From Roseiflexus sp. RS-1 (GTDB lineage: Bacteria > Chloroflexota > Chloroflexia > Chloroflexales > Roseiflexaceae): a stretch of DNA of 64,000 bases. Positions 4,455 to 15,512 of this stretch are shown here, one piece after another. The stretch is from the NCBI RefSeq assembly GCF_000016665.1, contig NC_009523.1, forward strand, positions 3,347,501 through 3,411,500. Reading direction: 5' to 3'. Positions within the stretch are counted from its first letter, which is position 1. Every line of letters begins with the position of its first letter. The position numbers and the translations under genes are program-made. Below the pieces are notes generated by a model. It was given only the letters and a program-made list of their open reading frames with translations, was not told the DNA's origin and ran no database searches.

Positions 4455-4757
4455 GTGAAAAAGGGTATTCATCCCCAGAACTATAACACGCAGGTGGTGT
4501 GCGGCACGTGTGGAACAGTCTGGCCCGTGATCAGCACCCGCCAGAACATGCGTGTCGATGTTTGTTCGCGCTGCCATCCGTTCTATACCGGCGAGCAGCG
4601 CATTGTTGATACTGCCGGTCAGGTTGACCGCTTCATGCGCCGCCTGCGCACGAGTCAGGATCAGCAAGCGGAAATTGCGCGCCGCCGGGCGGAACGCGAG
4701 AAGCCCGAACCAAAGAAGCGCAGCCTGTTGAAGGAAATCTACGGCGAAGAGGCGTGA
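4455..4757 (+). CDS. rpmE: 50S ribosomal protein L31, zinc-binding form with a basic tail
   Basis: A 100-residue L31 starting MKKGIHP at a GTG 11 nt after the rpmA stop, with TAGGAG as ribosome binding site. C16, C19, C37 and C40 form the zinc site of the C+ type of L31. After the family core (about residue 70) there is a highly charged extension of roughly 30 residues rich in Arg, Lys and Glu, longer than E. coli L31. The last 19 bp overlap the 3' end of the convergent WYL regulator. Confidence 0.95.
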
Positions 4758-5710
4758 TAGATCGCCGCCATCCGCCGCGCCTGCTCCCGAATATCTTCGC
4801 GCAGCGCGGCGGGCGCCAGCACTTCGACATCCCCGCCCCAACTCAGGATCCACTGGCGAATCTCCCGAATTCCTCCCACCCGCAAGATCATATCACAGTC
4901 GCCGTCGCTGCGATCAATAACCTGCTGGCTATGATGCCAGACGCTCTCGCGCACCCGACGGGCTGCCTCACCGGTGAAGCGTAACCGCACTTCCACTTCG
5001 GTCTCGTTCATGATGCTCCATGCAGAGGCCAGGTGCGCATAGGGGTCGAAGTTCTCAGGAATGGTGTATATTTCATCGAGGATCGTCGCCTGCTCGATGC
5101 GTTCGAGTTTGAATGTGCGCAGCGCGCCACGCAGTCGATCATGAGCAATGACGTAGGATGCCGGTTCGCTGCGCGCTACTTCCAGCAGGTACGGCTCAAT
5201 CACGCGCTGCGTCGTCTCCCCGTTCATCGCACGGTAGCGGATATCGACACACTGCCGATCCGCCCATGCGCGGGTGATCGTTTCGAGAATGCGAATATAC
5301 TCCGTTCGCCGCGCTCGCGCGCGAATGAGATCGGCCACCCGTGCAATGTGGGTGGAAACGGTCGTGTCGGGAAGGCTCGCAGCGAGTTTCTGCAATGCCG
5401 ACACGACATGTGGGTTGTGCTCGTCGCTATGATGCGAAAGCAGGCGTGCCGCAAAGAACAACGCGACCGCTTCGTTGAGGTTCAATTGCACCGTTGAGAG
5501 ATAGGTCTCGCGCTCGATGCCGTAGCGTCCCCCCTGCTGCCATACCGGTACGCCCATTTCTTCGAGCGCAGCAAGATCGCGGTAGATGGTGCGCCGATCA
5601 ACACCGCACCGTTCAGCAAGATCGACGACGCGCAAACCACCAATAGCATTGTAGAGCAGATGTTCTATCCGGCGCAAACGCGCCGCTTTGCTCCGGGACC
5701 GATCTGACAT
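4739..5710 (-). CDS. WYL-domain transcriptional regulator (YafY type)
   Basis: A 323-residue regulator with an N-terminal winged HTH of the HTH_11/DeoR kind (residues about 10-65, [18 protein letters not shown]) and a C-terminal WYL domain (about 150-230) followed by the WCX extension. Proteins of this family bind DNA and sense small ligands or nucleic acids through the WYL fold. The segment at the usual W-Y-L site reads SYVIAHD, so the name-giving tryptophan is absent. It follows the small membrane protein at 5749 by 38 bp in the same direction. The target is unknown; nothing nearby suggests a defence island. Confidence 0.85.
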
Positions 5711-6413: not shown

Positions 6414-7829
6414 ATGCGCGTGCTGGCGCGTCTACTGACAGCAACAATCGTTCTTCTGGCTCTGGCGATCTATGCGCTGCCAGCGCCGGTTCAGGCTCAG
6501 GCGACGCTGCCACAGTGGTATGAGCTGCGCACGCAACGCTTCGCAATCCTCTACGCTGATGGCGATCTTGCGCATGCTGAGGAGTATGCGACATTCGTCG
6601 ATGAGGTGTACGACGAAATAACATCGATCTTCAGTCACGCCGTACCGACGCCGGTCACGTTGCGTCTCTACCCGAACCGCCGCGCGTATGATACAGCCAA
6701 TCCGCTGGCAGCGCCGATTCGCGGGATCATTGCGCATGCCGACTTCCGCCGGAACGAGGTGGTTGTCATTCTTGATCAGACAAACGCACAATCACCGGAA
6801 GAGATCAAGAACAATGTGCGCCATGAGTTGACCCATATTGTGCTGGCGGAACTCTCCGCCAATCGTCTGAATGTCGGTTTCCACGAAGGCATCGCTCAGT
6901 ATGTCGAGCGCCCTTCACCGGAACTGGAACGTAAGGTAACGGCATTGCGACAGGCGCTGGAGCGCGATGAACTGCTTCCCTGGAGTGCGCTCGATGATCG
7001 GGATCAGATCTATGGCAGTCCGCAGATCGGCTATCCGCAAACCCTCTCCATCGTTGCGTTCCTGGTCGAGCGTTATTCGTTCGTCAAACTGCGCGAGTTT
7101 ATAACCGTGAGCGGGCGCAGCAGCGGGTATCGCTCGGCGCTCGAACGGGTGTATGGCACGCCTGCGACTGAGCTGGAGCGTATGTGGCGCGAATGGTTGC
7201 CGTCGTACCTCGAAGGCGGGTTTCGCCATAATGCGCTCACTGAGTACGATCTCACTCCTGTCGAGACGCTGGTGGCGGAAGGTCGCTATGCTGAAGCCAG
7301 GCGCGAACTGGAACTGGCGATCCCATGGTTGCGCAATACCCAACAGAACGATGTATTGACGCGCGCCCAGGATTTACTGAGGCGAAGCGAATTGGGGCTG
7401 ACCGCCGAAGAACTTGCACGCCAGGCACGCACTGCGCTCGAGGCGCAGGAGTACGCAAAGGCGTCTGATCTCGCGCAGCGCGCGCTCAAAGCCTACACTG
7501 CGCTCGACAATGCCGACCGTATCGAGACGCTGCGCGTCTATGCGGCAATCGCCAATCGCGGATTGCGCGCCACCCAACTGCTCGAACAGGCCACGACCCT
7601 TGCCGGAGACTGGCGAACATTCGCCGATGCGCGGGCTGTTGCCGATCTGGCGGCGTCTGAGTTTCTCTCACTCGGCAACCAGGAACACGCTGCGCGCGCC
7701 CTTGAACTGCGCGCTGAAATCGACCGTGTGCAGACTCTCGCCGGATTGGTGCTGCTCCTTGTCGGGCTGGGAGGTATCACTGTCGGCGTAACGCGCCGCC
7801 TGGTTGTGCGCGAGGCGGAGGTCTGGTGA
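6414..7829 (+). CDS. Secreted, membrane-anchored peptidase MA family protein (gluzincin)
   Basis: A 471-residue protein with a signal peptide (hydrophobic residues 9-24, likely cleavage after VQAQA), an extracytoplasmic zinc metallopeptidase domain and a C-terminal transmembrane helix (about 440-460). The zinc motif is HELTH (H137, E138, H141) with a downstream third ligand E158 in HEGIAQY, the gluzincin pattern of the peptidase_MA family. Residues about 275-430 are helical and repeat-like (Ala/Leu/Glu-rich), possibly TPR-like. It is the first gene of a five-gene plus-strand operon and its stop overlaps the next start as TGATG. The substrate is unknown. Confidence 0.8.
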   Translation: MRVLARLLTATIVLLALAIYALPAPVQAQATLPQWYELRTQRFAILYADGDLAHAEEYATFVDEVYDEITSIFSHAVPTPVTLRLYPNRRAYDTANPLAAPIRGIIAHADFRRNEVVVILDQTNAQSPEEIKNNVRHELTHIVLAELSANRLNVGFHEGIAQYVERPSPELERKVTALRQALERDELLPWSALDDRDQIYGSPQIGYPQTLSIVAFLVERYSFVKLREFITVSGRSSGYRSALERVYGTPATELERMWREWLPSYLEGGFRHNALTEYDLTPVETLVAEGRYAEARRELELAIPWLRNTQQNDVLTRAQDLLRRSELGLTAEELARQARTALEAQEYAKASDLAQRALKAYTALDNADRIETLRVYAAIANRGLRATQLLEQATTLAGDWRTFADARAVADLAASEFLSLGNQEHAARALELRAEIDRVQTLAGLVLLLVGLGGITVGVTRRLVVREAEVW

Positions 7830-9238
7830 TGCCGGAACGCCATCATCCATTGATAGAACAGTTGCACCGCCTGGCAACCGAACGTTGGGCGCGACGCGCT
7901 CTTCGCACTGTCCTTCAGTCGGTGTCGGTTGCGATCGGCGTGTGGTGCGTCGGAATGGGTGCACGGCTGCTCTGGAACCTGGAGATCGATGTGCAGACGC
8001 TGACAGCCGTTGCCCTCGCCATTGTGGGTATTGCACTCATCACCCTGCTGCGCCCGCCAATGCGCCCGACAGACGCGGCTCGTCGCCTCGACCGACGCTT
8101 CCGCCTCAATGAGCAACTGGCGACTGCGGTCGAGATGCTTCAAAGCGGCAGGCAACTCTCGCCAATGACGGTGCGTCTGCTCGATCAATCGACTCACACA
8201 GTGCAGCAGGTGCAGTGGTACATTAATCAGCGTCAGACGGCACCATGGACTGATCTGTTGACTCTGCTGGCGCTGGCGCTGGTGGCGGGTGGATTATTGC
8301 TGCTCTCAGGCATCAGCGGGATGGCGCTCAATCCATCGGTGGCATCGTTGCCGGCGCTGCCTCCATCAGGCACGCTCCCTTTGCCATTCCCGGCGGACGA
8401 CGGCGGTCCGATTGCCGGCAGTGATCAGTTCATCCCGCTCGATCCCGGCGAGGAGATGATGCCTTTCCGACCAGGAAACGCCGCCGGTGATCAACAACCT
8501 GCTTCGACCCCGGCTCAGACGACACAACAATCTGCCGCAGACCCCAGGACGCTCGAAGCGCTGGCAAATGCGCTGCGTGACCTGGGCGCAACGCGACCGG
8601 TTGCCGATGCGCTTGACCGTGGCGATACCGCAGCTGCAGCGCAACGCTTGCGTGAACTTGCCGATCAGGCGGGCGCACTGTCCGAAGAAGCGCGGCAGGC
8701 GATTGGACGTGCGTTGCAGGACGCGGCGCGCACTATCGAACAGCGGGATCCGGCGCTCGCCGGGCAGGTGCGTCAATCGGCGCGCGATATTGCCGGTCAG
8801 CAGCGTGCTGCTCAGGGACTCGAAGAACTGGCGCAGGCAATTGATCGATTAGGGCAATCTTCGTCTGCCAGTGCTCCATCATCGAATGAGCCGGGCGAGG
8901 GGCAGGCGAACACCCCTGGCGGTCAACCGGGACAATCCGGTGCAGATGGCGCAAACCAGCAGAGCGCGCCTGGAAGTGCAGCGGGCAACAACCCCTCCGG
9001 CGAACAACGCCCCATCGCTCCTGCTGGACGCCTCGGCGTTGAAGGACAACCGGTGACAATTGAGGCGCAGGGCGGCGGGCAGGGTACTGGCGTAATCAAC
9101 AATCCAGACGCTTCCCTGCAAAGTGGCGTCGGAACAGTCTCTGGCGGGGAGTCGGGCACAGGCGGCGCAATCGGCGCCGACCCGTTGCGCATTCCCCTCG
9201 ACGAACGCGATGTGGTTCGGGAATATTTTCAGCCCTAA
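7829..9238 (+). CDS. Membrane protein with low-complexity Gln/Gly/Pro region, vWA operon
   Basis: A 469-residue protein I recognise only loosely (similar in layout to DUF4175-like proteins found beside BatA genes). It has two hydrophobic helices near the N-terminus (about 28-48 and 55-72) with a charged stretch RRLDRRFRLNEQLATA after them, and a third helix at about 140-162. The rest is probably extracytoplasmic: an Ala/Gln-rich helical segment (about 230-345) and a Gly/Asn/Gln/Ser-rich tail. The start ATG overlaps the previous stop (TGATG), and the last 29 bp overlap the start of the DUF58 gene, so the operon is tightly coupled. Confidence 0.7.
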   Translation: MPERHHPLIEQLHRLATERWARRALRTVLQSVSVAIGVWCVGMGARLLWNLEIDVQTLTAVALAIVGIALITLLRPPMRPTDAARRLDRRFRLNEQLATAVEMLQSGRQLSPMTVRLLDQSTHTVQQVQWYINQRQTAPWTDLLTLLALALVAGGLLLLSGISGMALNPSVASLPALPPSGTLPLPFPADDGGPIAGSDQFIPLDPGEEMMPFRPGNAAGDQQPASTPAQTTQQSAADPRTLEALANALRDLGATRPVADALDRGDTAAAAQRLRELADQAGALSEEARQAIGRALQDAARTIEQRDPALAGQVRQSARDIAGQQRAAQGLEELAQAIDRLGQSSSASAPSSNEPGEGQANTPGGQPGQSGADGANQQSAPGSAAGNNPSGEQRPIAPAGRLGVEGQPVTIEAQGGGQGTGVINNPDASLQSGVGTVSGGESGTGGAIGADPLRIPLDERDVVREYFQP

Positions 9239-10133
9239 ACCGCAGGCGGAGATACCGCCGCTGTTCAATGAAGCCTTTCTACGCCGCCTGGAACGGCTGA
9301 GCCTGCAGGCGCAGCGGACCCTGCGCGGTCGCCCATCTGGCGGCGCACATCTCAGCCATCGTCTGCTGCCCACGTCTATCTTTAGCGATCATCGCCCGTA
9401 CAGTGTCGGTGACGATTATCGCTATGTTGACTGGAATGTGTATGCGCACCAGGATGCACTCTTCGTCAAACTGGGCGAGATCGAACAGGATGTTACTATT
9501 CATCTGCTGCTGGACGCATCGCGCTCGATGGCATGGGGGTCTCCTGCCAAACTGCGCGCTGCGCAATTGATTGCCGGAACGCTTGGGTATCTGGCGCTGG
9601 CGCACAATGATCGGCTTCATGTGACGTCATTCGATGCCGCAGTGCGCCGTGAGTTCGGACCGGCACAGGGAAAATCGCGCCTGATTGAGATGTTACGGTT
9701 CATCGAGCAGGTGCAACCGGGCGGCGAAACCAACCTCAGATCGGCGCTCGAAACGTATGCGCGCCACCATCCACGCGGAGGGTTGCTGGTCGTCTGTTCC
9801 GATCTGCTTGCGCCTGAAGGGCTTGAGGAGGGATTACGCGCGTACCCACCACCGACATGGCAGACACTCGTGATCCATCTTCTCGATCCGCGCGAACTGA
9901 ACCCTGAACGTCTCGGTCCCATCGAGCTTGAAGATGTTGAGACGGGTAAACTCCTGCCATTGATTATTGATGATGAGACAATTGCACACTACCGTCGTAA
10001 TCTTGCCGCCTGGCAGCGGACGATCGAATCGATCTGCGGGCGACGAGGCGCAACATATGCGCGTGTGCTCAGCACGTGGCCGCTCGAGCGACAGATTATT
10101 CCATATCTGCGCGCACGCCAGATACTGACATAG
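9210..10133 (+). CDS. DUF58 protein with vWA-like fold
   Basis: A 307-residue cytoplasmic protein of the DUF58 family, known for its link with MoxR AAA+ ATPases and BatA-type vWA proteins. The family signature YRYVDWNVYAHQD lies at about residues 70-82, and a MIDAS-like metal motif DASRS starts at D102. I chose the ATG at 9210 because the protein then begins just before the conserved region; the frame is open further upstream only inside the previous gene. The overlap with the preceding gene is 29 bp, and the next gene starts 3 bp after the stop. No MoxR ATPase is present between 6.4 and 14.5 kb, where one is usual. Confidence 0.88.
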   Translation: MWFGNIFSPKPQAEIPPLFNEAFLRRLERLSLQAQRTLRGRPSGGAHLSHRLLPTSIFSDHRPYSVGDDYRYVDWNVYAHQDALFVKLGEIEQDVTIHLLLDASRSMAWGSPAKLRAAQLIAGTLGYLALAHNDRLHVTSFDAAVRREFGPAQGKSRLIEMLRFIEQVQPGGETNLRSALETYARHHPRGGLLVVCSDLLAPEGLEEGLRAYPPPTWQTLVIHLLDPRELNPERLGPIELEDVETGKLLPLIIDDETIAHYRRNLAAWQRTIESICGRRGATYARVLSTWPLERQIIPYLRARQILT

Positions 10134-10136
10134 CGT

Positions 10137-11966
10137 ATGAGTTTTCTGTTGCCACTCGGATTACTGGCGCTGCTCGCCCTACCGATCATCGTGCTTCTGC
10201 ATCTGCTGCGCGAACGACGTCAGCGCGTGCCGGTTCCGAGTCTGTTGCTCTGGGCACATCTTCCTCGCCGGATCGACGGTGAGCGGAGTCGTCGTCTGCC
10301 GCTGACGCTGTTGTTGTTGCTGCATCTTCTGGTTGCTGCGCTGCTTGGCTTCGCGCTGGGAGGACCGCAGATCGCGGGTGCGCTCGCCCCCGACGCACGT
10401 CATACTGCGCTGATCATCGATACTTCGAGCAGTATGGCAGCCACCGATGGGGGGGCAAGCCGCTTCGAACAGGCGCGACAACGCGCTCGCACCCTTATCG
10501 CAGCAACATCTCCTGGCGACCGGATCACGCTGATCGCTGCCGGACCCCGGGCGCAGATTGTTGTATCGGGCGAAGATCCCTTCGTTCTCACCGCAGCGCT
10601 CGACACCCTGCGACCCGGCGGCGTCGGAGCGGCGATCAACGAGGCGCTGACGCTGGCGGAAGCCGCTCTCGACCCGCAGTTCAGCCGACGGATTGTTGTG
10701 GTGACCGATGGGGCATTGCCGCCACAACCGGCGCGCGATGTCGCGGTACCAGTGGAGTGGGTGCAGATCGGTTCAGCGGTTCCCAATCGCGCGATTATCG
10801 CCTTTGCCAGTCGTCCCTGGGGAGGTCGCATCCAGGTGTATGCGCGGGTTGCCAGTTACGACACCGCGCCATTCAACGGGACGCTGCGGATCGTTTCTGG
10901 TAATCAGGTGCTGGCGGAGGAACAGGTCACGATTGCGCCAAACGGCGAAACTGAAATCAGCTGGACATTGCCGGGCGGCGTGGAGACGCTGCGCGCAGTG
11001 ATCGATGGACGCGACGCGCTGCCGCAGGACGACTCCGCCTATCTGAGCGTGGCACAGGGGCGTCCAATCACGGTGATCCTGGTATCGAACCAACCGGCGG
11101 CTCTCCGCCGCGCTCTTGAAGTTATCCCCGGCGTCACTGTCGTCGCCACGACCCCTGCTGCTTATGCGACCACATCTGAGCGCGCGATCGCCGATCTGAC
11201 GATCTTCGATGGTTTTCTCCCCGATGCCTGGCCCCAGGGATCGGTGCTGGTGATTGCACCACCGCCAGATTCATCGTTGCTGCGCGTGACGTCCGATCTT
11301 CAACCCCTCGATGCCGGAGCGCCACTGCGTCAACGCGGCAGCACGCTGGAAGGGCTTGGTTTTGGCGGTGTCGTGTTCAATGCTGTCAGGCGGATCGAGC
11401 CACCACCATGGGCTGAAGTGCTGCTGGCATCCGGCGACCTGCCGCTGATTCTGCGTGGGCGAACCGAGGGTCATGAAATTGCGATCTGGACGTTCGATCT
11501 TGCCGGTGGCAACCTGACGACACGCCTGGCGTTCCCGCTTCTGGTGGCTCGCACGGTGCGCGACCTGGCGCCACCGCCGTTGCCACAGGCGGTGCGTGCT
11601 GGCGAAATGCTGATGATCCGACCTGATCCACGCGCAACGGCACTGGTGATCCGCAGTCCCGACGACCGACGCATCGAAGCGCCGGTTGCATCGGTCGTCA
11701 CACTCGATACCCTGATCGAACCTGGATTCTATACAGTGGAAGAACAGCGTGGCGGCGCCACCGTTCTCGCTGGCATAGTGGGCGTCAACGCGGGCGCAGC
11801 GATCGAATCGAACCTGCGCCCGCAAAGCGCACCGCCGTTGCGCGCGCCCGGAAATGATCCCGGGAGCGCGTCTGGACAGCATATGATCGATCTGTGGCCC
11901 TGGCTTGCCGGCGCTGCGCTTATCGTTCTGGCGATTGAATGGGTGTATGTGTTACGACGCCGGTAA
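10137..11966 (+). CDS. BatA-like membrane protein with vWA domain
   Basis: A 609-residue protein. The N-terminus matches the BatA domain: two helices (about 3-23 and 57-75) separated by a basic loop (LLRERRQRVPVPSLLLW). A vWA domain follows with the MIDAS motif DTSSS from D95, then beta-rich extracytoplasmic segments, and a final transmembrane helix (about 585-605) ending in VLRRR. In better-known clusters such proteins act in the envelope together with DUF58 and MoxR; that role is transferred here by family and context only. Confidence 0.85.
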   Translation: MSFLLPLGLLALLALPIIVLLHLLRERRQRVPVPSLLLWAHLPRRIDGERSRRLPLTLLLLLHLLVAALLGFALGGPQIAGALAPDARHTALIIDTSSSMAATDGGASRFEQARQRARTLIAATSPGDRITLIAAGPRAQIVVSGEDPFVLTAALDTLRPGGVGAAINEALTLAEAALDPQFSRRIVVVTDGALPPQPARDVAVPVEWVQIGSAVPNRAIIAFASRPWGGRIQVYARVASYDTAPFNGTLRIVSGNQVLAEEQVTIAPNGETEISWTLPGGVETLRAVIDGRDALPQDDSAYLSVAQGRPITVILVSNQPAALRRALEVIPGVTVVATTPAAYATTSERAIADLTIFDGFLPDAWPQGSVLVIAPPPDSSLLRVTSDLQPLDAGAPLRQRGSTLEGLGFGGVVFNAVRRIEPPPWAEVLLASGDLPLILRGRTEGHEIAIWTFDLAGGNLTTRLAFPLLVARTVRDLAPPPLPQAVRAGEMLMIRPDPRATALVIRSPDDRRIEAPVASVVTLDTLIEPGFYTVEEQRGGATVLAGIVGVNAGAAIESNLRPQSAPPLRAPGNDPGSASGQHMIDLWPWLAGAALIVLAIEWVYVLRRR

Positions 11967-11978
11967 AGGTTGACACTG

Positions 11979-14534
11979 ATGATCCTTCGCAATCCACAGT
12001 TTCTGGCGTTCCTGATGCTCGTGCCCCTGATCATTGGCGGCTGGCTCTGGCGACGCGGTCGCCTGCCGGCAATGGCGCTCGTGCTGCGGGTTGCCATTGT
12101 CACGCTCATTATCGTTGCACTGGCGAATCCCGTTATGCTGCACGGGCGAATTGAGACCGCCGCTGCACCGCTCATCGTCGTGCTGGTTGACCAATCGGAC
12201 AGCCTGACCGATCAGGGGAAGGCGACACTCCGTGCGCGTGCAGCGGCGCTTGCCGCAGGTAGCAGCACCCCCGTGCAGATTATCACCTTTGGTGCGACCG
12301 TGGCGGCAGAAGGCGGGACGTTACGCAGCGATCAGACCGACATCGCGGCTGCACTGCGTGCAGCACGCGGGTTGATCGGCGCCAGTGGCGGTCGGGTGGT
12401 GCTGCTCTCCGACGGTCTTCAGACCAGGGGGGACGCACTCGCCGAAGCGCGGGCGCTGGCGCTTGCCGGTATCCCGGTCGATACGGAACAGTATCAGGCG
12501 CCAGCATTGTCCGAGTTCTGGATTGCAACGGTTGAGACGCCAGCCACCTTGCGCGAAGGGGAGGAGTTTACCGCCCGAATCGTGATGGTCAGCACCGTTG
12601 CTACCGGTGTGCAACTGGAGATCACCGCTGGCAATGAGCGTATGGTGACGCAGCAGGTGCGTCTATCGCCCGGCGAAAACACCTACCTGTACACCGGTCG
12701 CGCCGGTGAGCCGGGCATTCTGCGCCTCCAGGCGACGATCAGCGGTCAGCCCGACACGCTTGCGCGCAACAATCGCGCCGGTGCAGCTATGCTCGTTGCC
12801 CCAATGCCACGTATTTTGCTGGTGGAAGGATCAGACGGCGCTATCAGCGCACCATTGCGAGGCGCGCTCCGTGAAGCAGGCGTCATTGCGGATGTAGCCG
12901 ATCCGACGGCGCTCCCCGCCCAGATCTCGGCGCTCGGTCTCTACGAAGGAATTGTACTGATCGACGTGCCTGCAAGCGCGCTGACCTTCGACCAGATGGC
13001 GACGTTGCGCGAATTTGTCCGCAGCGAAGGGCGCGGCTTACTGGCGATTGGCGGACGATCAAGTTTTACGCTCGGCGCCTACAAGAACACTCCCCTGGAA
13101 GAAACACTGCCGGTCGAAATGACCCCGCCCCCACGTCCAGAACGCTCGGATACGACCCTGCTGTTGATCATCGATCAATCTGCCAGCATGGGACCCGAAA
13201 CCGGCATCTCCAAATTCACGATGGCGAAAGAAGCCGCCATCATGGCGACCGAGTCGCTCCGCCAGGAGGATCGCATCGGCGTGCTGGCATTCGATGTCTC
13301 GACCCGCTGGGTGGTTGATTTTCAGCCGGTCGGCGTTGGTTTGAGCCTGGCTGATGTGCAGCGCCGCATCAGCACGCTGCCGCTTGGCGGCGGAACCGAC
13401 ATCTACAACGCACTCCAGGAGGGATTGCCAGCACTGGCGCAGCAACCCGGACGGGTGCGCCACGCAGTGCTGCTCACCGATGGTCGTTCGTTCACCGACG
13501 ACCGACAGGCATATCGGATGCTGCTCGAAGAAGCGCGCAGCCAGAATATCACCCTCTCGACGATTGCCATCGGCACAGACGCCGACATCAATCTGCTCCA
13601 GGAACTGGCGCGCTGGGGGGCGGGGCGGTATCACTACGCCGCCGAACCAAACGATATTCCGCGCCTGACGCTGCTCGAGAGCGAAATTGTGCGCACAGAA
13701 CCGCAGGTTGAGGGCGATTTCCGCGCCGAGCAGACCGCTCCGCATCCCATGTTGCGCGACTTCGCGCCGGAGCAGATCCCCGGTTTGAAAGGATATGTGG
13801 CCACGCTTCTGAAGCCCGGCGCCGATCTGGTGCTCCGTTCCCCTGATGGCGACCCGGTGCTCGCTGTCTGGCAGTATGGGCTTGGGCGCGCCGCTGCGTG
13901 GACGCCTGGTGCAGAAGCGCCATGGGCTGCCGACTGGTCAAACTGGCCCGATTACGGTCGTTTCTGGGCGCAACTGATTCGCTACACTCTCCCTGAGCCG
14001 GATAGCGGTCCGCTTCAAGTGCGCGCCATCCGTGACGGCGATAGTGTGCGCATCGTCGCCGACTCCGTCGCACCGGGCGGCAGACCGCTAGACCTGGCGG
14101 ATACCCAGGCGACGATCGTGCTGCCGGATGGTTCATCCCGACTGATTACACTCCGTCAGACAGCGCCCGGACGCTACGAACAGGCGTTGACCCTGACGAC
14201 CGACGGTTCGTATGCAATCGAAGTGCGCCAGCAAAAGGGGAATGAGGTGCGCTCGGCGCAGATCGGCTATGTGCAACGCTACCCCGATGAATACCTGCCT
14301 CCCGCCGATCCGCAGGCCGGCGCGCGGCTGTTGAACGACATCAGCGCCATCACTGGCGGAACAGCGCTCCGCGGCGGACCGCTCGTAACGCCGGGCGTCG
14401 TTCCTCTTAGCGCTGAACGGGCGCCGGATACCGGGCTGTGGCCCTGGTTGATCGGTCTTGCGGCGTTTCTCTGGATCATTGAGATCGCGCTACGGCGTGG
14501 GTGGTTACGACTACCGCAGCGCTTCACCCGCTGA
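11979..14534 (+). CDS. Large membrane protein with two vWA MIDAS motifs and a GATase1-like segment
   Basis: An 851-residue protein, last in the operon. Two N-terminal helices (about 8-24 and 32-50), a first MIDAS motif DQSDS at D71 with a following vWA-like region, a segment resembling a class I glutamine-amidotransferase-like fold (about 275-385, ILLVEG...GLLAIGG), then a second, canonical vWA domain with DQSAS at D399 and the later TDG motif, a beta-rich region, and a C-terminal helix (about 820-840). I chose the ATG at 11979 because AAGG precedes it by 9 nt; a TTG at 11970 is in frame. It most likely faces the periplasm or cell surface. Function unknown. Confidence 0.82.
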   Translation: MILRNPQFLAFLMLVPLIIGGWLWRRGRLPAMALVLRVAIVTLIIVALANPVMLHGRIETAAAPLIVVLVDQSDSLTDQGKATLRARAAALAAGSSTPVQIITFGATVAAEGGTLRSDQTDIAAALRAARGLIGASGGRVVLLSDGLQTRGDALAEARALALAGIPVDTEQYQAPALSEFWIATVETPATLREGEEFTARIVMVSTVATGVQLEITAGNERMVTQQVRLSPGENTYLYTGRAGEPGILRLQATISGQPDTLARNNRAGAAMLVAPMPRILLVEGSDGAISAPLRGALREAGVIADVADPTALPAQISALGLYEGIVLIDVPASALTFDQMATLREFVRSEGRGLLAIGGRSSFTLGAYKNTPLEETLPVEMTPPPRPERSDTTLLLIIDQSASMGPETGISKFTMAKEAAIMATESLRQEDRIGVLAFDVSTRWVVDFQPVGVGLSLADVQRRISTLPLGGGTDIYNALQEGLPALAQQPGRVRHAVLLTDGRSFTDDRQAYRMLLEEARSQNITLSTIAIGTDADINLLQELARWGAGRYHYAAEPNDIPRLTLLESEIVRTEPQVEGDFRAEQTAPHPMLRDFAPEQIPGLKGYVATLLKPGADLVLRSPDGDPVLAVWQYGLGRAAAWTPGAEAPWAADWSNWPDYGRFWAQLIRYTLPEPDSGPLQVRAIRDGDSVRIVADSVAPGGRPLDLADTQATIVLPDGSSRLITLRQTAPGRYEQALTLTTDGSYAIEVRQQKGNEVRSAQIGYVQRYPDEYLPPADPQAGARLLNDISAITGGTALRGGPLVTPGVVPLSAERAPDTGLWPWLIGLAAFLWIIEIALRRGWLRLPQRFTR

Positions 14535-14651: not shown

Positions 14652-15512
14652 ATGCGCACCACTGAACCGCAGGCGACTGTCCTGCAGAACGCCACTCCTG
14701 CCATCCCTGCGAATCGCAACGCAGTCGGGAAGGAATTGATCTATCGCACACTGGTGCTGCCCGCCTGTCGCTCGATGTTCGATCGGGTCTGGATTGCCAT
14801 TGAGGGTCCTGTTCCCCATCCTGCCGAGGGCCCGGTTATTGTCTACATGAACCATCCAGGATGGTGGGACGGCTATATGGCGTTCCTGGTGGACAAGATC
14901 GTGCTCAACGAGCGGTTCCAGAGTTATATCATGATGGAAGAGAAGCAGTTGCGCGTGTACCGGTTCTTCACCTGGTGCGGCGCATTTTCGGTCGACCGGC
15001 GCCGCCCCGGCGAGGCGGAGCGGTCGATTGCCTACATCAGTCGTTTGTTGCGCGAACGACGTGACCGCATGCTCTGGATACTGCCGCAGGGACGGATCGT
15101 GCCGAACGATCGTCGTCCGTTGAAGGTCTATCCCGGAGTAGCGCGCATCGCCAGGCAGGTGGGGGATGTGATCTTCTGGCCCATCGCGCTGCGCTACGAG
15201 TTTCGCGGCGAACAGCGCCCCGAAGCATTCATTCGCGTGGGTCCGCCCCATACCTGCGATCCGACACTCCCCGAAGAGATGATCGTGAGTCTGGTGCAGA
15301 CGCGTCTGACCATTGCAGTCGACGCACTGCGCGACGAGGTGAACGAAGAACGTCTGGAAGCCTACCGCACCCTGCTTCGCGGACGACGCGGCATTAACCG
15401 CGTGTGGGATGACGTTGTCGCCGTGTGGCGCCGATCCATACAGCGACTATCAGGAAGATCACGCCAACCAGACCGGCCAGCGGATACCCGCGCGCCAGAT
15501 TCGCAGCAGTGA
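14652..15512 (+). CDS. PlsC-family acyltransferase, possibly carotenoid-related
   Basis: A 286-residue acyltransferase. The HX4D motif is NHPGWWD (N67, H68, D73), the second block has GAFSVDRRRPGEAERS, and the usual FPEGTR block reads LPQGRI, so it is a divergent member rather than a standard 1-acylglycerol-3-phosphate acyltransferase. It lies tail to tail with a CruF-type carotenoid gene and overlaps its 3' end by 119 bp. Because Roseiflexus is known to make fatty-acid esters of a carotenoid glucoside, esterification of a carotenoid sugar (CruD-like role) is a reasonable guess; phospholipid synthesis is the alternative. Confidence 0.75.
   Translation: MRTTEPQATVLQNATPAIPANRNAVGKELIYRTLVLPACRSMFDRVWIAIEGPVPHPAEGPVIVYMNHPGWWDGYMAFLVDKIVLNERFQSYIMMEEKQLRVYRFFTWCGAFSVDRRRPGEAERSIAYISRLLRERRDRMLWILPQGRIVPNDRRPLKVYPGVARIARQVGDVIFWPIALRYEFRGEQRPEAFIRVGPPHTCDPTLPEEMIVSLVQTRLTIAVDALRDEVNEERLEAYRTLLRGRRGINRVWDDVVAVWRRSIQRLSGRSRQPDRPADTRAPDSQQ

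Follow-up and report, generated by a model that had tools for sequence, protein, structure and literature searches.

An operon of a predicted gluzincin peptidase with DUF58, BatA-type and double-vWA proteins in Roseiflexus sp. RS-1, and its MoxR-bearing paralog

Gene content of operon A

The window analysed here, a stretch of 64,000 nucleotides of the Roseiflexus sp. RS-1 genome (NC_009523.1, 3,347,501 to 3,411,500), contains five co-directional genes (w1 to w5) on the + strand between positions 6414 and 14534, counted from the first letter of the whole stretch. We refer to these genes as operon A and to a paralogous operon elsewhere in the genome as operon B. Genes w1 and w2 overlap by 4 bp, w2 and w3 overlap by 29 bp, and the two following gaps are +3 and +3 bp. 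The leading gene, w1 (6414..7829), encodes a predicted membrane-anchored gluzincin peptidase of the Pfam family Peptidase_MA_2, and w2 (7826..9238) a membrane protein that has no Pfam family above cut-off and whose disordered linker is rich in Gln and Gly. They are followed by w3 (9210..10133; open reading frame from 9123, ATG at 9210 preferred), encoding a DUF58 protein without a membrane helix (129.9 bits), w4 (10137..11966), encoding a BatA-type von Willebrand factor A (vWA) protein with two N-terminal transmembrane helices and a C-terminal one (BatA 40.9 bits, VWA_2 56.4 bits), and w5 (11970..14534, TTG start), encoding a double-vWA protein with a GATase1-like domain (VWA_2 65.1 bits, GATase1_like 53.1 bits). 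The DUF58 gene directly adjoins the BatA-type vWA gene, a feature of Bat/MRP-type operons. All five genes are found together in 12 genomes of the order Chloroflexales (G015 and G029 are cut by the end of the stretch or contig), and the common gene order and near-zero gaps in these relatives rule out a chance neighbourhood. Gene layout, Pfam matches and conservation in relatives bear out the first-pass annotation, which had described a five-gene vWA operon led by a gluzincin peptidase and lacking MoxR; none of the six matches to the MoxR profile PF07726 in the genome falls within the window. In the open-licence literature, we found no description of a metallopeptidase-led DUF58-BatA operon in Chloroflexota.

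Peptidase_MA_2 is the sole family over its cut-off in w1 (45.8 vs. 32.4 bits). The HExxH motif spans residues 137-141 (6822-6836), Glu158 (6885-6887) is the third ligand, and H137, E138, H141, and E158 are invariant in 24 of 24 aligned peptidases. In the AlphaFold2 model (predicted local distance difference test score, pLDDT, 89.5), an N-terminal helix precedes a zincin domain (approximately residues 35-266), a helical region (281-420), and a C-terminal helix. Foldseek alone gave no structural match for this model at E <= 0.001; after re-alignment of the Foldseek candidates, residues 29-272 align with the M30 peptidase lugdulysin (Z 16.9, root-mean-square deviation 3.8, 228 residues), and the next matches are M9 collagenases and M1 aminopeptidases. 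By family score, catalytic residues, and modelled fold, w1 is thus a predicted gluzincin peptidase. The N-terminal helix is signal-like and the C-terminal helix hydrophobic, so that membrane anchoring is predicted, which corrects the earlier description of a secreted enzyme.

The vWA proteins were compared with the full definition of the metal ion-dependent adhesion site (MIDAS), DxSxS-T-D (PMC13036017). Complete sites are found on the + strand in w3 (DASRS, 9513-9527) and twice in w5 (DQSDS, 12189-12203, and DQSAS, 13173-13187), and the MIDAS-like DTSSS of w4 (+ strand, 10419-10433) is missing the MIDAS Thr. DxSxS is kept in 23 of 23 orthologs in w3 and at both w5 sites. In w4, the first D and the last S are present in 32 of 32 orthologs, the middle position being S in 24 and T in 8. 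The position of the MIDAS Thr is occupied by T or S in 20 of 23 w3 orthologs, by T or S at w5 site 1 and by T at w5 site 2 (23 of 23 each), and by G in 21 of 32 w4 orthologs, the MIDAS Asp of w4 being kept in all 32. Hence, of the four MIDAS motifs reported earlier in three proteins, all four DxSxS motifs are present and conserved, but only three sites are complete.

The membrane protein w2 is composed of three long N-terminal helices, a helical domain (residues 240-347), and a disordered linker (356-451), and its model (mean pLDDT 69.2, confident only in the helical parts) ends in a short helix (458-467). The C-terminal tail that follows the linker, IPLDERDVVREYFQP (9179..9235, + strand), is the most conserved w2 stretch among those measured, with a mean column conservation of 0.80 vs. 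0.39 for the linker (23 A-type rows). Among 61 homologs from operons of both types, YF is the C-terminal pair in 57 and FF in two, one sequence is cut by a contig end, and one is without the motif. Since operon B keeps the tail without having a peptidase, it is unlikely to be mainly a peptidase substrate, and its position on approximately 100 disordered residues would make it the likeliest built-in vWA ligand. The conserved YF tail thereby offers a short binding motif open to test. Assignment of w2 to DUF4175 (PF13779) was considered and rejected, as the profile matches only one of 22 homologs (E 0.026) and, at E <= 0.1, does not match the w2 of the window.

The predicted topology follows from charge bias across orthologs. 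The loop between the first two membrane helices is net positive in 32 of 32 w4 and 23 of 23 w5 orthologs, which places this loop inside and the following vWA ectodomain outside. In w2, the N-terminus (23 of 23) and segment 75-139 (22 of 23) are net positive, whereas the stretch after helix 3 is so in 0 of 23; the N-terminus of w1 is net positive in 26 of 31 orthologs. The outer side is accordingly the predicted location of w1, the w2 tail, and the vWA domains of w4 (one) and w5 (two), and the inner side that of the DUF58 protein w3, which has no membrane helix.

Operon B and its MoxR

The genome of Roseiflexus sp. RS-1 (one contig, 5,801,598 bases) has five PF07726 matches over the cut-off and one below it. 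One of the MoxR genes, at 2,343,041, sits in operon B (L010:5347-14583; G000:C1:2335000-2351000), which encodes a zinc ribbon protein, a w2 homolog, MoxR, DUF58, BatA, and double-vWA proteins. The w2, DUF58, BatA, and double-vWA homologs are arranged in the same order as in operon A, with identities of 41% for DUF58, 31% for BatA, and 30% for the double-vWA protein and weak homology for w2. Operon B has a MoxR and a zinc-ribbon gene and no peptidase, whereas operon A has a peptidase and no MoxR. The w2 homolog of operon B carries a very long Gln-rich linker, and in two genomes the B operon includes two tandem double-vWA genes (L074:9650-15268 and L075:457-6301).

In a 42-row MoxR tree, of the five MoxRs of this genome, that of operon B alone falls inside a clade holding the MoxRs of such operons across the phylum (35 rows, support by the Shimodaira-Hasegawa-like approximate likelihood ratio test, SH-aLRT, 100). 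The search for an unlinked MoxR, which the first-pass annotation had proposed, thus led to operon B and the sole matching-clade MoxR of the genome: MoxR is missing from operon A, as had been stated, but not from the genome. Adding 30 more loci enlarged the clade to 42 rows (support 100), with one in-clade MoxR in each of six Chloroflexales genomes tested (G000, G001, G007, G022, G027, and G030). The outgroup genome G098, which carries both a peptidase-MoxR cluster (L089) and a B operon (L118), has two. Five weak matches (one of them at the cut-off) and the sixth, below-cut-off match of the Roseiflexus genome were left out of the MoxR trees.

We found no matching-clade MoxR in the 33 operon-A loci of the order, the flanks of a few of which are short. 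A MoxR lies near operon A in only one of them (G015), and it is of another clade and on the opposite strand. This gene forms a MoxR-DUF58 pair (L024:7420-9704), and its nearest counterpart in the Roseiflexus genome is the MoxR of L008, located elsewhere.

The A and B types are also separated in a 79-row BatA tree, in which 34 rows form a Chloroflexia A group (support 99), 12 an A-like group (98), and 33 a B group (96). In the DUF58 tree, there are two A groups (25 rows, 88; 9 rows, 90), with the long branch of L091 inside the first, and the B sequences do not form one clade. Sequences entered the trees at minimum scores of 150 (MoxR), 100 (DUF58), 200 (BatA), and 150 bits (peptidase). The BatA proteins of genus g2 (L071, L072; approximately 84 bits) stand outside the BatA tree because they score below its minimum. 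Support values are SH-aLRT only, except in the peptidase tree, which has bootstrap values.

Linkage and retention of the peptidase

Among 40 genomes of the order, 33 encode the peptidase and 36 a BatA protein. Both the peptidase and an A-type BatA are found in 32 genomes and neither in seven, one genome (G021) has the peptidase only, and none has an A-type BatA only. The linkage in G021 is not readable because of a contig end, and its one long BatA is B-type (1052 vs. 381 bits). The peptidase is linked to operon A in 12 of the 33 genomes, namely six of family f1, five of family f2, and G031. Six of the seven genomes with neither gene belong to one genus (g2) and the seventh, G023, has an assembly gap, so that few independent events underlie this pattern. 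G023, of the same genus as the window and without peptidase or A-type BatA, was rejected as a case of loss since its flanks end at contig borders. No peptidase was found in any of the six g2 genomes, no A-type w3 or w5 in the two tested (G003 and G026), and no w2 in the one tested (G003); G026 has one 197-bit w5 match, located in its B-like operon (L071). The counts of MoxR and peptidase in the 33 order loci and in the 35 BatA loci outside the order were made on all reading frames, since the locus listing dropped overlapping frames and had hidden some genes, among them the w2 of L024 and the peptidase of L086.

The best evidence of a shared function comes from genomes in which operon A has dissolved and its gene set is still present, although few independent events are involved. 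In the Herpetosiphon-like genomes (g6), operon A is broken up and w4 lies among unrelated genes. All six of these genomes have the peptidase and w4, together with matches of 576 to 594 bits to w5 and of 241 to 251 bits to w3, the latter exceeding the B-type DUF58 proteins at approximately 204 to 206 bits. Furthermore, w2 is beside w3 in all four genomes searched, and all five scattered w2 copies read retain the tail. The orthology of the scattered w2, w3, and w5 was assigned by score, without a tree. In Herpetosiphon aurantiacus (G022), the w2-w3 pair is found at 0.56 Mb, w4 at 0.79 Mb, the peptidase at 5.27 Mb, and w5 at 5.34 Mb. In G037 (family f4), the genes are divided between two contigs: one holds w4-w5, and the other the peptidase and, at a distance of 23 kb, the w2-w3 pair.

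In the phylum, a survey of 301 genomes (peptidase cut 200 bits) identified six genomes outside the order with a peptidase above this score, and operon genes adjoin the peptidase in all six. In three of these loci (L086, L088, and L089), the peptidase, w2, MoxR, and DUF58 genes stand in a row, joined by BatA and double-vWA genes in L086. In L091, the peptidase, w2, DUF58, double-vWA, and MoxR genes are found, L090 (same class) has the arrangement of the window with MoxR absent, and L087 is cut after w2. In an independent scan of titled records with one genome per species (79 loci, 57 at >=200 bits), operon genes are beside the peptidase in 18 of the 57 strong loci, and many of the others are short contigs. 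Three of these loci (L200, L208, and L221) also contain a matching MoxR, L208 being cut by the locus end and L221 representing the region of L088. The peptidase and a MoxR thus share one cluster in six outgroup loci (L086, L088, L089, L091, L200, and L208), with the L200 and L208 MoxRs placed in the operon-MoxR clade. Among 35 BatA loci picked outside the order, 20 have a MoxR.

Two further peptidase loci were noted. In a Chloroflexaceae metagenome-assembled genome (L180), the zinc ribbon, w2 homolog, and MoxR genes of operon B are separated by approximately 3 to 4 kb from a stand-alone peptidase gene on the opposite strand, and a record labelled Candidatus Gracilibacteria (L181, JAAUTF010000772.1) contains a Chloroflexaceae-like peptidase with 49% identity to w1, possibly a binning error.

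A candidate surface complex and its alternatives

Several described systems resemble operon A in part. The Bat operons of Bacteroides, Borrelia, and Riemerella likewise combine DUF58 and BatA-type vWA membrane proteins, but they include TPR proteins and a MoxR, which is encoded at the front in Riemerella, have a reported link to oxidative stress, and come without mention of a metallopeptidase in the passages drawn on here (PMC5700661, PMC11834572). In the mycobacterial ripA-ripB-moxR1-DUF58-vWA locus, exported hydrolases are encoded upstream of DUF58-membrane-vWA genes, as in operon A. However, RipA and RipB are not zincins but peptidoglycan endopeptidases of the NlpC/P60 type, a MoxR is present, and the passages on this locus mention neither a double-vWA protein nor w2 (PMC12067865); the NlpC/P60 endopeptidase family did not pass its cut-off in the Pfam scan of w1. 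The cmdA-D genes of Rhizobium leguminosarum, known by description only, form a vWA/MoxR operon whose mutants have envelope and morphology changes (PMC5700661). MoxR-vWA ternary conflict systems combine MoxR and vWA proteins with peptidases, rarely a metallopeptidase, and DUF58 and BatA have no occurrence in the main text describing them (PMC7159879). Operon A is unlike these conflict systems in that no MoxR-vWA pair is encoded in one locus, with no MoxR in the window. To the first-pass annotation, the present analysis adds a sister operon, its MoxR as the single one in the matching clade, outgroup clusters containing both parts, and the retention of the genes after scattering.

With moderate confidence, based on the sequence comparisons above, we interpret operon A as encoding an extracytoplasmic vWA-peptidase complex that is a paralog of the Chloroflexota form of the MoxR-DUF58-BatA-vWA machine and probably shares its ATPase. 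Its job would probably be the maturation or quality control of cell-surface proteins, with the w1 peptidase as a plausible, putative effector. In such a complex, w2, BatA, and the double-vWA protein would assemble in the membrane, with the vWA ectodomains, the w2 tail, and the peptidase outside. On the inner side, the DUF58 protein of operon A would couple the complex to the MoxR from operon B, presumably serving it in trans, via the cytoplasmic loop 75-139 of w2, in which A85 and D89 are invariant across 22 A and B rows. ATP hydrolysis by MoxR may then remodel the complex, the strain passing through w2 to the outer vWA-peptidase part, where client proteins might be held or presented by the MIDAS sites so that the peptidase can cleave or release them, and where the w2 tail could act as a tethered vWA ligand. 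The action proposed for MoxR and DUF58 inside is modelled on two systems: for NorQD, it has been proposed that the client is remodelled as the NorQ ring twists and stretches NorD, its vWA partner (PMC13036017), and mycobacterial MoxR1 was reported to interact with RipA and mediate its transport (PMC12067865). The envelope assembly or processing complex suggested by the first-pass annotation is in line with a conserved membrane gene set and with the peptidase as an old partner, but the statement that MoxR is missing applies to the operon and not to the genome.

Several observations weigh against this interpretation. Of the 33 peptidase-bearing genomes of the order, 20 have the gene unlinked from operon A, twelve of family f4 and eight of family f3. 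None of the 35 BatA loci picked outside the order has a peptidase in any reading frame, seven A-like loci have neither MoxR nor peptidase (L095, L096, L099, L120, L121, L122, and L124), suggesting that the peptidase is dispensable in some lineages, and the B-type locus L123 also lacks both. The MoxRs of the outgroup A clusters do not form one clade, that of L091 grouping with the Chloroflexales B MoxRs, and this scatter leaves loss of MoxR from A and separate gains indistinguishable. A divergent G098 MoxR (L249, 195 bits) at the border of the operon-MoxR clade lowers its support to 23 and gives G098 two or three in-clade copies; the tree with L249 still has one in-clade MoxR in each of the six Chloroflexales genomes. 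Finally, only 12 of 32 w1 rows have a net positive C-terminal end, which makes the topology of w1 itself less clear. The peptidase is conserved in the operon in only part of Chloroflexota. It is absent from the operon in those 20 relatives, but all 20 retain the gene. In the peptidase tree (41 rows, 40 scored, L043 left out), two linked/unlinked changes suffice and all six outgroup rows, some on long branches, are linked. Thus, unlinking weakens the case for tight coupling, and the association stands.

One alternative is that operon A runs without any AAA+ ATPase, as a static scaffold that places the peptidase and binds ligands via its MIDAS sites. The lack of a matching-clade MoxR in the order loci and in the seven A-like loci would fit such a scaffold, which we nevertheless regard as somewhat unlikely: all 23 A-type DUF58 proteins retain DxSxS and the MIDAS Asp, the w2 loop with its two invariant residues is common to the MoxR-led paralog, and a matching MoxR is encoded elsewhere in all six genomes tested. 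Power could also come from the MoxR of L007, L008, L009, or L011, the four in this genome that belong to another clade. Such a MoxR is indeed encoded with a DUF58 gene beside operon A in G015, but this is one locus of 33, and the MoxRs of the six outgroup peptidase clusters are not of that clade, making this source of energy decidedly improbable.

The peptidase might instead be an independent exported protease merely sharing a transcript with vWA genes that do something else. Its unlinking in 20 genomes and its absence from the BatA loci outside the order point in this direction, but we consider it unlikely because linkage is seen in all six outgroup loci, whose selection relied only on the peptidase, and in 18 of 57 independent strong loci, and because peptidase and A-type BatA are present or absent together in all order genomes but G021, albeit through few independent events. 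A cofactor-insertion chaperone resembling NorQD, with the peptidase trimming the matured client, seems very improbable. Metal insertion by NorQD is driven by a MoxR-vWA pair (PMC13036017), but, of the three flanking window proteins scanned, one is an acyltransferase, one a WYL-domain regulator, and one without assignment, and both w4 and w5 are predicted to have their vWA domains outside the membrane.

As a tentative extension of the shared-ATPase interpretation, an ancestral cluster with both peptidase and MoxR may have split into operon A, which kept the peptidase, and operon B, which kept the motor that would drive A in trans; the YF tail in both would be an internal MIDAS ligand, and ATP would gate an outward-facing metalloprotease. 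MoxR-vWA systems are widespread, but in most cases it is unclear which clients they have and how they are coupled to ATP. A presumed enzyme and its motor in two operons of one genome would allow a clean genetic test of a motor acting in trans and of a dedicated protease as output.

Two neighbouring genes complete the picture of the locus. A gene for a PlsC-like acyltransferase (14652-15512) starts 117 bp after operon A, and a homolog is found near the orphan w4 in six of six Herpetosiphon-like loci (L067, L068, L069, L080, L081, and L082). Upstream, on the - strand, a WYL-domain regulator is encoded at 4739-5710, with homologs near operon A in L022, L024, and L026.

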